A stretch of DNA of 44,220 bases from a virus, in IMG/VR virus record IMGVR_UViG_3300010430_000123, positions 1 through 44,220 of that record. One strand, written 5' to 3'. The notes under the pieces are model-generated. The model searched no databases. It saw nothing but the letters and a program-made list of their open reading frames with translations, and was not told where the DNA came from. A program made the position numbers and the translations under genes. This document shows, in pieces, positions 13,998 through 36,500 of this stretch (within the stretch, counting starts at the first letter, position 1; each line of letters begins with the position of its first letter).

Positions 13998-15824
13998 CTA
14001 CTTCTCTTGTCGAAGCTTTCGGCCTAAGCCTGGGCTGACGGGTTCGCCGTTCTCGTCCAGAAGGGTCTCGATCTGCGTGCAGCGGCAGTTGCTCGTTATT
14101 ACATCATCAGCTATCATGAGGCCACTTTTCTCTTGGAGATCGTACACATGGCCAACGTAGCCAAACCGCTCGACACTGACGACATGATCCAGCTCAGCAA
14201 GGCCGGAGCCACCCTCAAGGAAATCGCCGCCCAGGCCGGGATATCCAGTCGGACCGTTTACGAACGATTCAAGCGGGCCGGGTTCAGTCCTATACGCGAG
14301 AACGCCCCCGTGAACCGGTTTGATGTGCTGGCGCTTCACCGGCAGCATGAGGCTGGCAAGTCCATCTTGCAGCTTAGCAAGGAGTGTGGCGTTTCCCGAA
14401 TTAGCCTGACCCGATGGTTCAAGGGTCGAGGCCTGCCCATTCGCGGTCGCAGCGACGCCAACAGCCTGCGAATGGCCCGACTGACCCCGGAAGAAAGAAA
14501 GCAGCTTGCGGGCGCCGCCCACGAGGCGAGGCGCGGCATGTCCGACTCGGATGCCACCAGGGCGAAGCGGGCCCAAGGGCGTCGCGACAGGGTGGGGATG
14601 TTTGAGCGCGAGATCATCCAAGAGGTGCGCAGCCGAGGATTCCAGGTTGACGGGCAGCATCCTATCGGCCCGTACAATGTGGACGCCTTCATTCATTCCC
14701 CGGCCATCGCCGTGGAAGTCTACAGCACGCACCCCGGCATCCAGAGAATGGCCGCCCTCAGAAATCGCAGTAAACACATCCTCGACAGGGGAGTCTCGGT
14801 GTTCGTTATTCAATGCACCTACCCCAACCGCAAATTCTTGCTTGGCCCTATAGCAGACAAGCTGGTCGCCTTTGCGGATATCGCCAGCAGGAACCATGCC
14901 ACGACTGGTCAATACGGGGTGATTAGGGGTGACGGAAAGATTCCGCCCACCAGCAGTCACGATATTGATAGCGTCGCCCGCGTAATGGGCTTTTGAGCCC
15001 GCTATAAAGCGACCCCGCACCAAGGTACCGGGCAGGTAGCAGTTGATCGAATTCCCGTCCCGAGAGTAGAAATCCCGGACCTCCTGGGTGGAGTAGTAGT
15101 TGCCGTGCTTGGCGCGGTGGGATTGGCGGGTAGTCGGCAGCAGGGCGGACATCCACAGCATGGTAGTGCGAATGCCGAGGTTTTGCTGGGCATCGTCGGC
15201 CTCGTCCAGCCTGCCCCGCCGGAGCGCCGTGGTGACCTCTGTGCGGGCGATACGGTCAGCGCGGGACTTGGCCACACCAAAGCGGTCACGGATGTCCCTG
15301 GCGATGTCACGGGGGCTCTGGCCCAATTCCATGCCCCGGCGGAGCGTCTGCGCCAGATCGGTGGCTGTCTGGCCCTCAAAGCCGCGCATTTCCTCAAATA
15401 CCCGCGAGGCCACCAGGGCGACACGCCGCTGGTAGGGGGCACTGGATACGACCTGCACGATGTCTCGGGTGTAGTCGTCGGTCAGGTGTGACAGATTGGT
15501 GACAGCGTGCGCCGTGCCTTCCTCGTAGGCGGACCGGACCTGATCGGCGGTGTAATCGTCCGGACCCTGGCCCATGCGCTCCCGCAGTTCCCGGTTGATG
15601 CGCTCCATTTCGGACACGTCAACTTGGTATTCATATCGGGACAGGTTCACGTCGAAGGCGTTGACGGCTACCCGGTTGTACGGCAGGTTCTTGAGTTCTT
15701 CCAGCAGCCACCCCCGGACGGACGACAGGTGCTTGCCCATCTTGCCCCGGATGCGGCGGATGCGCTTAACACCACCCACCGGGTTATTGGGGTGGCGGGG
15801 GAGGATCGGCTGGTTACTCGGCAT
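13998..15824 (-). CDS. MuF-type minor head morphogenesis protein containing an intein
   Basis: A 608-codon gene after the portal, overlapping it by 11 bp. The N-extein (residues 1-261) has the head-morphogenesis helices and the MuF region (RADRIARTEVTTALRRGRLD, then LPTTRQSHRAKHG). The intein spans residues 262-579. The C-extein (580-608) starts CRCTQIETLLDENGEPV. Joining the exteins gives GNSINCRCTQ, restoring the conserved NCRC motif of MuF proteins, which supports splicing. The spliced product is 290 aa, normal for the family; it is thought to act inside the procapsid at the portal. The intein carries an antisense homing endonuclease gene. Confidence 0.88.
   Translation of the reverse strand: MPSNQPILPRHPNNPVGGVKRIRRIRGKMGKHLSSVRGWLLEELKNLPYNRVAVNAFDVNLSRYEYQVDVSEMERINRELRERMGQGPDDYTADQVRSAYEEGTAHAVTNLSHLTDDYTRDIVQVVSSAPYQRRVALVASRVFEEMRGFEGQTATDLAQTLRRGMELGQSPRDIARDIRDRFGVAKSRADRIARTEVTTALRRGRLDEADDAQQNLGIRTTMLWMSALLPTTRQSHRAKHGNYYSTQEVRDFYSRDGNSINCYLPGTLVRGRFIAGSKAHYAGDAINIVTAGGRNLSVTPNHPVLTSRGMVPAGDIRKGDQLVCYRAKQEFAVGVGALNNEHRDSPVEDVFTAISEGGHSLDAGVRAVDFHGDGRGMNEGVHIVRADRMLPVNLESSAAHLLDDLALKHPHPVATPLGPLRPGGIRVGHAAPRLVGGARKLLSFFRGQSGHSQAVGVAATANGQASTLEPSGQANSGNATLLAKLQDGLASLMLPVKRQHIKPVHGGVLAYRTEPGPLESFVNGPTGYPGLGGDFLEGGSGLAELDHVVSVERFGYVGHVYDLQEKSGLMIADDVITSNCRCTQIETLLDENGEPVSPGLGRKLRQEK
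14088..15041 (-). other. Intein in the MuF protein (318 aa)
   Basis: Block A starts at Cys1 (CYLPGTLVRGRF, codon 15041-15039). Block B is LSVTPNHPVLTSRGMVPAGD with the TxxH signature. Block F is GHVYDLQEKSGLMIADD. Block G is VITSN followed by Cys+1. The last intein residue is Asn; the usual penultimate His is replaced by Ser, as in some other inteins. There is no LAGLIDADG or HNH domain in frame between B and F; that middle stretch (PVEDVF, VDFHGDGR, VHIVRADR) resembles phage MuF inteins and is overlapped on the other strand by a homing endonuclease gene. Confidence 0.9.
14148..14996 (+). CDS. Antisense HTH + Vsr-like (EDxHD-type) homing endonuclease inside the intein
   Basis: A 282-aa protein on the strand opposite the intein, wholly inside it. 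ATG 14148 has GGAG 9 nt upstream; a TTG at 14133 is less likely. Residues 21-46 (ATLKEIAAQAGISSRTVYER) and about 72-97 (ILQLSKECGVSRISLTRWFK) are two helix-turn-helix motifs. Residues about 108-130 form a charged NUMOD-like helix. Residues 151-225 look like a Vsr/MTES_1575-type nuclease: GFQVDGQHPIGPYNVDAFI (Asp179), AIAVEVYSTHPG (Glu190, His195) and a downstream Arg-rich helix before GVSVFVIQ. Vsr-like homing endonucleases (I-Bth0305I type) are known from introns and split-intein loci. The motifs cannot be a by-product of the intein frame. Most probably it spreads the intein; expression needs a promoter against the structural operon. Confidence 0.85.
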   Translation: MANVAKPLDTDDMIQLSKAGATLKEIAAQAGISSRTVYERFKRAGFSPIRENAPVNRFDVLALHRQHEAGKSILQLSKECGVSRISLTRWFKGRGLPIRGRSDANSLRMARLTPEERKQLAGAAHEARRGMSDSDATRAKRAQGRRDRVGMFEREIIQEVRSRGFQVDGQHPIGPYNVDAFIHSPAIAVEVYSTHPGIQRMAALRNRSKHILDRGVSVFVIQCTYPNRKFLLGPIADKLVAFADIASRNHATTGQYGVIRGDGKIPPTSSHDIDSVARVMGF

Positions 15825-25748: not shown

Positions 25749-26543
25749 TCAGCGTGATGCTTCTTTCCGGGATGTACGGTTGCCATTCCTTGCGAGGTAC
25801 TTTCTTACGATCTGCTCTCGAGTCAATCCTTTCCGCATGTGGTAATAAAATGACGATATCGGAATCCCGGCCTCCTTCATCCAGTAAGTGGTCGGCCCAG
25901 AAACGCCGTCCACTTCTATAATTTGAAGGTGAAGACTGGCTTTACTTAAGTCCGACTTCGATCTTCCCGCCTGGATTCTTTGGATTAGGGCCCCATAAGT
26001 CACACCATAAAAAGCGGCGGCCTCTTTGGCCGACATCTCCCCGTGATCCGTCTGAACTCGCACCGACCTCGATGTATTTGCCGCCTGCTGCTCGGGAAGC
26101 TCCCACCTGCAATTCTCGGGACAATAGTTCCCATCGTTATCAATTCTTCCAATCGTGTGCAGCTCCGTTGGGGCCACTCCCATATCGGATATAAAGTTCT
26201 GAAAGGACTTGACCCATTGTTCGCACACTCGAATACCCCTTCCCCCGTAGCGATGATAGCGCTGGCTTTTCGGGTTATAGCAACGCGTCAGCATATTATT
26301 CCAAGCACGGTACTCCTTGGACTTGCTCATGCCGTGCGTCCTTTTGGTTTTGGACAGCAGGTCACTACGGAGACACCCACAACTCAGGGATCGTCCGGAG
26401 GTGTAATTACCCTTGTAAACCTCAAGCTCCTTGCCGCAATCGCAACGGCAGAGGATGTATACTCCCTCCTTTCTGCGAACACACTCGATAGCCACAAGCC
26501 TTCCCGATCTATCACCAGGACTCACTATCACCCTTTCTTTCAT
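25749..26543 (-). CDS. AP2/HNH-type putative homing endonuclease
   Basis: A 264-aa free-standing nuclease-like protein overlapping ninG by 32 bp. An N-terminal zinc-ribbon-like part has CRCDCGKE and SCGCL. The central block reads YRAWNNMLTRCYNPKSQRYH, then YGGRGIRVCEQW and IDNDGNYCPENCRW, the conserved pattern of phage HNH/AP2-type endonucleases. The C-terminal half holds one or two HTH-like modules (SAKEAAAFYGVTYGALIQRI; MKEAGIPISSFYYHMRKGLT). Likely a mobile gene inserted into the nin region next to the non-coding element. Confidence 0.75.
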   Translation of the reverse strand: MKERVIVSPGDRSGRLVAIECVRRKEGVYILCRCDCGKELEVYKGNYTSGRSLSCGCLRSDLLSKTKRTHGMSKSKEYRAWNNMLTRCYNPKSQRYHRYGGRGIRVCEQWVKSFQNFISDMGVAPTELHTIGRIDNDGNYCPENCRWELPEQQAANTSRSVRVQTDHGEMSAKEAAAFYGVTYGALIQRIQAGRSKSDLSKASLHLQIIEVDGVSGPTTYWMKEAGIPISSFYYHMRKGLTREQIVRKYLARNGNRTSRKEASR

Positions 26544-27111
26544 TTATCCGCCTCTGATGCCGCGCCCGCCTGCCAAAAACAGACTTCATTCTCCGCAGGT
26601 AATCAATGCTAAACCTCTTCGGCCCAGCCTCCGACTCTAGGGCGAGCACCGCATCAATGCCTACACGATCAACAAGTCCAATTCTATAGTTTACAGCGTT
26701 CGATGACAAATGGACATTACAGGGGGCGCACTGTTTGTGTACGTTGAGAGTGTTGAATCGCAGCTCCGGGGCGGCTCCGACTGACCTATAGTGCCCCGCA
26801 TGCCATTGCCCCTGGTGGTGACGACCGCAGGATATGCAGGGAAGCGCCCGGTCTCTCTCGCGTATATAGGCGTTAAACTCTTTCTGCGCCTCCCTGGCCC
26901 ACTGGGACCGTGTTTTGAGCGCCGCCTTGCGCTCCCTGAGACGTTTTCGGCTTTCCTCGGCCTCGCGGTCGGCCTTGCGCTTGCGCTGCTCCTGAGCCTT
27001 TTGGAGCCCGTGTGCGGCCATGTGATCCAGATTGCAGAACCCCGCCCGCTGCCAGTGATCCGACTTGGCTTTGGGCGGTATCTCGGTGCGGCAGTGTCGG
27101 CACTTACGCAC
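26512..27111 (-). CDS. ninG: NinG-like recombination protein (Rap family)
   Basis: A 199-aa homologue of lambda NinG/Rap, an endonuclease that aids RecA- and Red-type recombination. Start chosen at GTG 27111: GGGAG is 7 nt upstream and the length matches lambda NinG (204 aa). Matching regions are a Cys pair near the N-terminus (CRHCRTEIP), a basic coiled coil, RSQWAREAQKEFNAYIRERD, LPCISCGRHHQGQWHAGHYR, and RFNTLNVHKQCAPCNVH with the metal-binding His and Cys. It overlaps the previous stop by 8 bp. Confidence 0.85.
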   Translation of the reverse strand: MRKCRHCRTEIPPKAKSDHWQRAGFCNLDHMAAHGLQKAQEQRKRKADREAEESRKRLRERKAALKTRSQWAREAQKEFNAYIRERDRALPCISCGRHHQGQWHAGHYRSVGAAPELRFNTLNVHKQCAPCNVHLSSNAVNYRIGLVDRVGIDAVLALESEAGPKRFSIDYLRRMKSVFGRRARHQRRINERKGDSESW

Positions 27112-27502
27112 CGGGCCGCTCCCGCATGGGGCGCCAGTGAGTGACAGGAATCGCGCCCGTGCGCCAACCGCCGACACGCCCCACCCATTCACCGTTCCAC
27201 CGCTCACCGATCAGGCACCCTTTCCGCCCCTCGCATCTTACGAAGCAGCTTTCGCCATCTTCGGGAATTGCGCTCTCAACGCCAATCCATCCGGAATCCT
27301 CCCCGGTATCCCACTGGACATGCGGGTGCAGCCTCATGCCGTACTTGATGATCTGCGATGCGGCCCAGTTTGCCGTGGCGTCACGGTCGCGCCCGAACAG
27401 CACAGCCAGGAACGCCGCCGACAGAAACAGCCAAGCCACCGGGCGATAGAACCAGCGCCGGGTCACTGTGAAATAGATTGTTACATTGCAGCTGATTGTC
27501 AT
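27104..27502 (-). CDS. Membrane-anchored DUF551-like protein
   Basis: A 132-aa protein whose ATG overlaps the ninB stop (ATGA). Residues about 12-38 contain a transmembrane segment (RPVAWLFLSAAFLAVLFG). The C-terminal domain includes GEWVGRVGGWRTGAIPVTHW and ends WRPM, the typical end of DUF551 phage proteins. A second DUF551 protein lies at 35803. Function unknown. Confidence 0.6.
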   Translation of the reverse strand: MTISCNVTIYFTVTRRWFYRPVAWLFLSAAFLAVLFGRDRDATANWAASQIIKYGMRLHPHVQWDTGEDSGWIGVESAIPEDGESCFVRCEGRKGCLIGERWNGEWVGRVGGWRTGAIPVTHWRPMRERPGA

Positions 27503-33482: not shown

Positions 33483-33911
33483 ATGGAAGAAAAGAAGTGC
33501 TTTAAATGCGGAGAGGTGAAACCACTCTCCGCATTTTATCGCCACCCCCGGATGGCTGACGGGCATGTGAATAAATGTATTGAGTGCAACAAAAGGGATG
33601 TTAGGGAGAACAGGTCCAAAAGAGTGGAATACTACCGGGAATATGACAAAGCCAGAGGCAATAGGCAGGACAGTCAATACATCAGGGAGTACAGACAGAA
33701 ATATCCCAACAAGTACAGGGCGCACGGAATTGTTGGGCGAGCAATACGAGCCGGGAAGCTGGCCAGGCAGCCATGCGAAAAATGCGGCGATGGCGGCAAT
33801 TCGCACGCCCATCACGATGACTACCTAAAACCTTTAAACGTTAGGTGGCTTTGCCCGTCATGCCACAAGGCGTGGCATGATGAAAACGGCGAGGGCCTAA
33901 ACGCACAGTAA
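33483..33911 (+). CDS. HNH-type zinc-finger protein (free-standing endonuclease)
   Basis: A 142-aa protein. The N-terminal CFKCGEVKPLSAFYRHPRMA with NKCIECNKRDV forms a zinc ribbon. A basic helical linker with YYREYDKARG follows. The C-terminal part has CEKCG-x5-HAHHDDY and CPSCHKAWHDEN, a zinc-bound HNH-like core. This domain pair is common in free-standing phage HNH homing endonucleases. It stands between ssb and an Ea22-like gene with its own ribosome site. Confidence 0.75.
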   Translation: MEEKKCFKCGEVKPLSAFYRHPRMADGHVNKCIECNKRDVRENRSKRVEYYREYDKARGNRQDSQYIREYRQKYPNKYRAHGIVGRAIRAGKLARQPCEKCGDGGNSHAHHDDYLKPLNVRWLCPSCHKAWHDENGEGLNAQ

Positions 33912-35806: not shown

Positions 35807-36102
35807 GCAGATGGATTAGTGTTGAGGATGCCCTGCCTGAAGTGAGCGCCCTGGTGGTCGTGTACACGCCGCCTCAGCCGGGCGACCACGACGACGAAGG
35901 GCACTACGACCTCGATTTAATCAGCGAGGACTACGAAGACTGGTTTGCCCACTGCGAGAGCTACGAGCACTTCCTGGCTGTAGCCCCGCCAGACTGCGGC
36001 AGCGTTGTAGGGCCGAGCGAAAAAGCGCCGTACACGCATTGGATGCCACTACCCGCCCCGCCGGAGCCCCACCAGGGGCGTGGGGGTGGCGAGTGCGACT
36101 GA
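35803..36102 (+). CDS. DUF551 protein
   Basis: A 99-aa protein beginning MSRWISVEDALPEVSALVVV, then WFAHCESYEHFLAVAPPD and ending YTHWMPLPAPPE. The opening W-I-S-V-x-D-x-LP and closing THWMPLP are diagnostic of DUF551. Unknown function, frequent in lambdoid phages. Confidence 0.75.
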   Translation: MSRWISVEDALPEVSALVVVYTPPQPGDHDDEGHYDLDLISEDYEDWFAHCESYEHFLAVAPPDCGSVVGPSEKAPYTHWMPLPAPPEPHQGRGGGECD

Positions 36103-36500
36103 CGAAAGCCGAGCGCCAGCAGGTCCACGACAAATTCGGCGGCCTCTGCGCCTATTGCGGAGGGGAGCTGCCGGAGCGCTGGCACGTCGATCACCTGGAA
36201 CCGGTGCGCCGCGACCTGGGCTTCGTGGGCGGGCGACTGGTTTCTTCGCAGACCGACTGCCAGCACCCTGACCGGCACTGTCCGGAAAACCTCATGCCGG
36301 CCTGCCCGCCCTGCAACATCAGCAAAGGGCCGATGGACCTGGAGGTATGGCGCGGCTGGCTCAAGAAGCACGTCGAGAGCCTGAACCTGTACCAGAAGAC
36401 CTACCGGATGGCCAAAGCCTACGGGCTGATCCAGGAGACAGGCGCCGAGGTGGTGTTCTATTTCGAGCGCCAGGCCGCCCAGCGCGGCAGGGAGGAATAA
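36093..36500 (+). CDS. HNH endonuclease
   Basis: A 135-aa HNH protein, start chosen at GTG 36093 (GTG CGA CTG A overlap with the previous stop). LCAYCGGELPERWHVDHLEP supplies the first Cys pair and the catalytic DH. PENLMPACPPCNISKGPMDL supplies the N, the second Cys pair and the terminal part. The family includes host-nicking and homing enzymes in T7-like and Pseudomonas phages. Confidence 0.82.
   Translation: MRLTKAERQQVHDKFGGLCAYCGGELPERWHVDHLEPVRRDLGFVGGRLVSSQTDCQHPDRHCPENLMPACPPCNISKGPMDLEVWRGWLKKHVESLNLYQKTYRMAKAYGLIQETGAEVVFYFERQAAQRGREE

Follow-up and report, generated by a model that had tools for sequence, protein, structure and literature searches.

A phage MuF intein with a putative homing endonuclease gene encoded antisense within it

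Homing endonucleases are normally encoded in frame within an intein or stand beside it. I-Bth0305I, a Vsr-like/EDxHD enzyme, is the product of a group I intron. Antisense genes for His-Cys homing endonucleases in group I introns are described in the accessible text of PMC9548176. The accessible text of PMC11855218 describes the ShiLan element, in which a phage DNA methylase harbours an HNH endonuclease out of frame, with no detectable intein or intron. For overlapping frames in actinobacteriophages, it cites a preprint whose subject is actinobacteriophage inteins of 'non-canonical architecture'. In the literature searched, which reached neither Gorbalenya 1998 nor this preprint, no intein was described as carrying an endonuclease gene in antisense. 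Here, we analysed a stretch of viral DNA of 44,220 nucleotides (the window; IMG/VR record IMGVR_UViG_3300010430_000123) in which an intein and an endonuclease gene occupy opposite strands of the same DNA (Table 1).

Table 1. Coordinates in the window of the MuF host gene, its intein and the antisense gene, with the basis of each assignment (in VITSN/C, the slash marks the splice junction)
Feature	Position	Strand	Basis
MuF-like minor head protein gene, host of the intein; precursor of 608 aa	13998..15824	-	Pfam Phage_Mu_F 5.9e-12; phrog_758 head morphogenesis 7e-79
Intein, 318 aa, Cys1 (15041) to Asn318 (14088), then Cys+1	14088..15041	-	Pfam Intein_splicing 7e-6; AlphaFold2 HINT fold; PDB RecA/RadA intein matches
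Intein block A (CYLPGTLVRGRFI; includes CYLPGTLV)	15003..15041	-	sequence; alignment of relatives
Intein block B (RNLSVTPNHPVLTS; includes TPNHPVLT)	14901..14942	-	alignment of relatives; selection test
Intein block F (GHVYDL; GHVYDLQ); codons double as Shine-Dalgarno and ATG of the antisense gene	14136..14153	-	sequence of relatives; start-signal analysis
Intein block G, C-terminal residues to VITSN, then Cys (VITSN/C)	14088..14111	-	sequence; relatives
Antisense homing-endonuclease gene (putative), 282 aa + stop, wholly within the intein	14148..14996	+	domain matches; relatives; codon and selection tests
Shine-Dalgarno GGAG, 9 nt before the ATG	14135..14138	+	sequence; SD-like cores upstream in most nonredundant relatives
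HTH unit 1, residues 10-43	14175..14276	+	HTH_23 3.5e-11; AlphaFold2 helices 10-18, 23-30, 34-43
HTH unit 2, residues 60-93	14325..14426	+	HTH_3 1.6e-5; AlphaFold2 helices 60-68, 73-80, 84-93; Cbp1 2lvs profile match
PD-(D/E)xK / MTES_1575 / Vsr-like nuclease domain, residues 151-248	14598..14891	+	MTES_1575 2.8e-4; profiles; fold; invariant residues

A preliminary description of this DNA had proposed that the MuF gene contains an intein in which blocks A, B, F and G are present and an in-frame endonuclease domain is not. Its coordinates were confirmed to the base. A Pfam scan found no endonuclease domain in frame in this intein or in 44 relatives (45 of 45 without), and Intein_splicing was matched by all 45 inteins scanned. 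In the AlphaFold2 model, residues 1-65 and 279-318 form the HINT fold with pLDDT values of 92-98. Residues 153-278 have values below 50 and are predicted to be disordered. The model matches RecA and RadA inteins in the PDB. With its four blocks, Cys1, terminal Asn and Cys+1, the element is, as judged from its sequence, a class 1 HINT intein that would be expected to splice.

The plus-strand gene lies codon for codon antisense to the intein frame, codon position 1 of the plus strand facing position 3 of the minus strand and vice versa. Its product had been described as carrying two HTH motifs and a Vsr/EDxHD-like nuclease behind its own GGAG-ATG start. Profile searches with both products bear this out, with Intein_splicing found on the minus strand and HTH_23, HTH_3 and MTES_1575 on the plus strand, so that recognisable motifs are indeed present in both frames over the same DNA. 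The MTES_1575 match of the window protein alone (2.8e-4) is under Pfam's gathering score; 39 of 45 members of the endonuclease family match the profile. Across 45 endonucleases, residues E153, D179, E190 and R207 are invariant and H195 is nearly so; the catalytic acidic residues could be aligned to 3hrl. Searched against the PDB, profile A1 matched 3r3p (title 'Mobile intron protein'), which we take to be I-Bth0305I, at 8e-7 and 3hrl at 6e-6, as well as 2lvs. With profile A5, 3hrl still scored below 1e-3, and 3r3p was no longer among the matches below 1e-3. In the AlphaFold2 model (mean pLDDT of 88), two HTH units of three helices each are followed by a helical linker and a nuclease of alpha/beta type. 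Foldseek gave weak matches (E about 3e-3), with the DUF559-like nuclease 3hrl at the top, then 4g6v (CdiA toxin nuclease) and 2lvs (CRISPR-repeat-binding HTH). Since the mean pLDDT of 88 contrasts with values below 50, the plus-strand product is predicted to fold and most of the minus-strand middle is not. With a Vsr-like/EDxHD domain and its catalytic acidic residues, the product is by sequence a nuclease of this type, and site-specific cleavage would be expected of it.

A TTG start at 14133 was discarded; it overlaps the Shine-Dalgarno sequence and is not a conserved start. A scan of the plus strand for sigma-70 promoters gave one weak match, as compared to 0.8 expected by chance, and none that was convincing. 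PADLOC, used to look for a link to defence systems, returned weak HTH matches only. Elsewhere in the window, HNH-type ORFs are found at 33483-33911 (+) and 36039-36500 (+), with Pfam HNH matches of 0.0028 and 1.8e-6, and a NinG homologue at 26512-27207 (-; 1.5e-58). A 264-aa ORF at 25749-26543 (-) resembles by eye an AP2/HNH-type phage endonuclease (YRAWNNMLTRCYNP... RIDNDGNYCPENCRW) and has no convincing Pfam match.

The start signals of the plus-strand gene are written into the codons of block F. The block F His codon, read on the complementary strand, gives its ATG, and the Y-D/N-L codons likewise give its Shine-Dalgarno sequence. Across 99 nonredundant loci, the endonuclease starts 60 or 63 nt from the C-terminal edge of the intein. 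The block F Leu codon is CTC in 70 of 83 cases (19% expected, P=6e-37) and the His codon is CAT in 74 of 83 (41% expected, P=2e-19). This bias is synonymous for the intein and is meaningful only for the opposite strand.

The same architecture was found at about 280 related loci in phages, prophages and metagenomes. A tblastn search with the plus-strand protein gave 126 phage records and one Chloroflexota plasmid. IMG/VR scans with two alignments gave 299 and 241 relatives, 80 of which were kept from each, and GTDB genomes added 14. Most relatives were gathered by endonuclease similarity, which favours intact copies; among 201 loci collected in this way, a few of them copies of one contig, the in-register antisense frame is free of stops over the endonuclease in 200. 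The remaining two antisense frames of these loci have on average 14.8 and 8.3 stops. The intein N block is present in 198 of the 201 loci and both N and C blocks in 195; three loci (L021, L002 and L026) are without intein blocks. When the search was started from the intein, with a pattern overlying the nuclease core, the endonuclease was found at 80 of 80 loci, one copy being shortened by a contig end and another (L213) interrupted by a premature stop. A profile search of 399 genomes returned three inteins, each with the antisense gene. In the annotated phage and plasmid records inspected, no CDS was annotated in the frame of the intein-embedded gene.

Cys1 is present in 180 and Cys+1 in 190 of 191 inteins. 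A subgroup (L144, L145, L158, L159, L169, L170, L174, L175 and L184) begins with Ala in place of Cys (AE[LIV]PGN...), which resembles class 2 inteins, and retains Cys+1. Two copies are without the usual HTH pair: a short variant in Rhodococcus phage REQ3 (L020), and a Streptomyces platensis plasmid copy (L023) with an apparent zinc ribbon. In L154 (987-5483, -), NUDIX and ADP-ribosyltransferase domains are joined to the MuF protein that bears the intein.

In Acinetobacter Obolenskvirus phages, the endonuclease gene is free-standing (L021, 455-1348, +; L204, 4001-4894, +) and lies tail to tail beside a MuF gene that is intact and has no intein. Its start region reads HVHSL in antisense, resembling a relic of block F. 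In the tree, the free-standing copy nests among intein-borne copies (SH-aLRT 97), which suggests, within the limits set by long branches, that it escaped from an intein.

An antisense frame of a GC-rich intein might be open by chance, in which case the plus-strand ORF would be a functionless by-product. High GC often leaves in-register antisense frames open: among equal-length control windows in ordinary genes, the antisense frame is open in 30-41% at above 60% GC and in 1.4% at below 50% GC. Besides, the ORF reaches into conserved intein blocks at either end. Because so many GC-rich controls are open too, an open frame alone is not strong evidence, and its use as sole evidence was discarded; it also occurs in L002, a free-standing copy devoid of intein blocks. 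However, AT-rich relatives are open as well, in 19 of 19 cases below 50% GC against the 1.4% of controls. Codon usage in the endonuclease frame was compared to that expected from the extein or neighbouring genes. An intein frame that has to remain open bars the endonuclease from using TTA, CTA and TCA. No TTA, CTA or TCA codon occurs at 19 nonredundant phage and plasmid loci, for 96 expected, nor in 102 nonredundant contigs, for 505 expected; redundancy was cut at 85% protein identity, and some phylogenetic dependence remains in these counts. The free-standing relative L021 has 12 such codons for 10.8 expected. The zero counts therefore show that the intein frame is kept open.

Selection was also measured in each frame. 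Among single-base codon changes in 33 independent pairs, 1572 are synonymous in the endonuclease frame only and 684 in the intein frame only (1:1 expected, P=2e-81). Overall omega in these pairs is 0.25 for the endonuclease frame and 0.90 for the intein frame. Over endonuclease residues 21-232, omega is 0.11-0.31, as compared to 0.67-2.8 in the intein frame. The pattern is reversed at residues 251-282, antisense to blocks A and B, with 0.73-0.78 for the endonuclease and 0.22-0.26 for the intein; the DNA of block B is thus the antisense of a weakly constrained endonuclease C-terminus. Comparing dN/dS on each strand, as the preliminary description had proposed, hence reveals purifying selection on the plus frame and an intein frame that is largely free except for this reversal. 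Residues 183-215 are constrained in both frames (omega of 0.23 for the endonuclease and 0.67-0.69 for the intein). The central intein motif VDFHGDG was considered as a possible intein-specific element. It is the antisense of the nuclease core (VAVE) and has an intein omega of about 0.7 against 0.23 for the endonuclease. A partial dual constraint is possible there, because the intein frame is moderately constrained.

Codon avoidance, omega by frame, the start-codon bias and the free-standing homologue rule out a chance antisense ORF, against which the nuclease and HTH profile matches also stand; the probability that we leave to it is practically nil. Instead of a product having no homologues, or only unconstrained ones antisense to inteins, we found invariant E153, D179, E190 and R207, the 3r3p match, purifying selection and a free-standing gene.

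Comparison with intein-free genes points to a mobile element. In Gordonia phage Angelicage, the joined MuF flanks align without gaps to intein-free relatives at up to 97.4% identity, and 76 records contain most of the query in one place. MoontowerMania is an intein-free Gordonia phage whose flanks are 97% identical to those of Angelicage. The joined flanks of Salmonella phage vB_StyS-sam are likewise contiguous with intein-free relatives (271 records with most of the query). As read from these alignments, insertion in the Gordonia and Salmonella relatives is precise and in frame, with intein-free alleles. Between the Gordonia phages Angelicage and Keitabear, the MuF flanks are 95.5% and 91.3% identical and the inteins have almost no DNA similarity. 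Inteins of 316 and 275 aa occupy the same site in the Gordonia phages L007 and L015, whose MuF flanks are 91-95% identical. Therefore, either the site was invaded separately or the intein was replaced. Intein-free alleles, together with different inteins in near-identical MuF genes, indicate that the element is mobile.

Host exteins fall into 28 clusters, mostly MuF at HP[NH]/C[RK]C, where the slash marks the insertion point. In Virus Rctr197k (L009, 616-1968, -), the intein and its antisense gene are found in a dCMP deaminase (Pfam 5.6e-11), at the zinc motif PCVA/C, so that the element can use non-capsid hosts. The extein of L105 (2194-4929, -) resembles by eye a papain-type cysteine protease, the intein preceding the putative catalytic Cys (KYGT/CVVA). 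No Pfam host domain matched this extein; the host is probably a cysteine protease.

These host genes also bear on whether the antisense gene might regulate the head operon, transcriptionally or post-transcriptionally, through an HTH protein and an antisense RNA over MuF, with the nuclease being vestigial. The two HTH units would suit such a role, as would an antisense transcript overlying a late structural gene, for which the promoter scan gave no convincing start. But the nuclease residues are the most conserved ones, insertion occurs at several sites and in the dCMP deaminase, and the MuF gene is uninterrupted in those phages of the same groups that lack the intein. We therefore regard a regulatory role as very improbable.

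Overall, given the architecture and the selection observed, it is very likely that the element is a mobile intein served by a homing endonuclease from an autonomous gene in antisense. The preliminary description had read the antisense overlap as another way of building a mobile intein, and the relatives, the selection in each frame and the invariant residues support it. The endonuclease gene occupies the usual place of the in-frame domain, between blocks B and F, on the opposite strand. The minus strand would give the MuF precursor, from which the intein would be spliced out, its middle being a mostly disordered loop. From the plus strand, the endonuclease would be transcribed and independently translated, using the ribosome-binding site and ATG inside the block F codons, and its expression may thereby be uncoupled from the late head operon. 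In co-infecting phages or prophages, the enzyme is predicted to cut intein-free MuF at HP[N/H]/C[R/K]C, after which repair would introduce a copy of the intein along with the antisense gene.

The same cleavage could serve primarily against competing phages (superinfection exclusion), the spread of the intein being a side effect. Free-standing T-even homing enzymes are known to exclude rival phages, and the target alleles here belong to related phages of the same group. However, all but a few copies lie inside a self-splicing element at a cleavage-type junction, and the element moves between unrelated host genes. Exclusion is moreover compatible with homing and not an alternative that excludes it; as the primary function, we consider it unlikely.

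For a homing gene placed in this way, a frameshift would presumably also destroy MuF. Decay could therefore proceed only through missense changes, in-frame deletions, or stops that the intein frame reads as Leu or Ser. L213 is consistent with the last of these routes: a premature stop splits its endonuclease at about position 775 (reverse-strand coordinates) and the intein frame is still open. It is possibly a decay stage of the homing cycle.

Since both frames are under selection, the same DNA would specify a functional protein on each of its strands. With several hundred loci, and with intein-free controls, this is a clean natural example of antisense dual coding that is verified by selection. 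It is likely that the elements form a widespread and overlooked class of mobile inteins, with an independently translated, codon-for-codon antisense endonuclease, start signals in block F, both frames selected and an overlap that shields against decay. If so, overlap with an essential capsid gene would protect a selfish gene from the decay that homing endonucleases usually undergo, and the homing life-cycle model becomes directly testable through the prediction that overlap slows decay. A new pool of compact, HTH-guided site-specific nucleases is also predicted among these enzymes. A mobile intein with one of its halves on each strand is a design that we did not find in the searchable literature.

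The cited preprint on actinobacteriophage inteins concerns the same data domain (PhagesDB) and may include Gordonia MuF cases, so that part of the present finding may already be described there. Compared to canonical mobile inteins (HINT with an in-frame LAGLIDADG or HNH domain), the element has the same splicing blocks (A, B, F and G), is likewise inserted ahead of a Cys in a conserved motif, shows empty-site polymorphism and has its endonuclease between blocks B and F. In contrast, the endonuclease is here a protein of its own, encoded by a separate gene on the opposite strand. The nuclease fold and the E...D...E..H...R pattern are shared with I-Bth0305I (3r3p) and DUF559/MTES_1575 (3hrl). 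Unlike in I-Bth0305I, the nuclease domain follows two HTH units and is antisense in an intein. With ShiLan, as far as the accessible text of PMC11855218 describes it, the element shares an insertion that leaves the reading frame of the host open and conceals an endonuclease in a frame overlapping it. That enzyme is of the HNH type, in a shifted frame of the same strand and with no intein, whereas the present one is Vsr-like, on the opposite strand, in register and within an intein. Finally, the genes described in the accessible text of PMC9548176 are likewise homing endonuclease genes antisense to their host element; that element is an intron, whereas here the strand antisense to the endonuclease must itself stay translatable.
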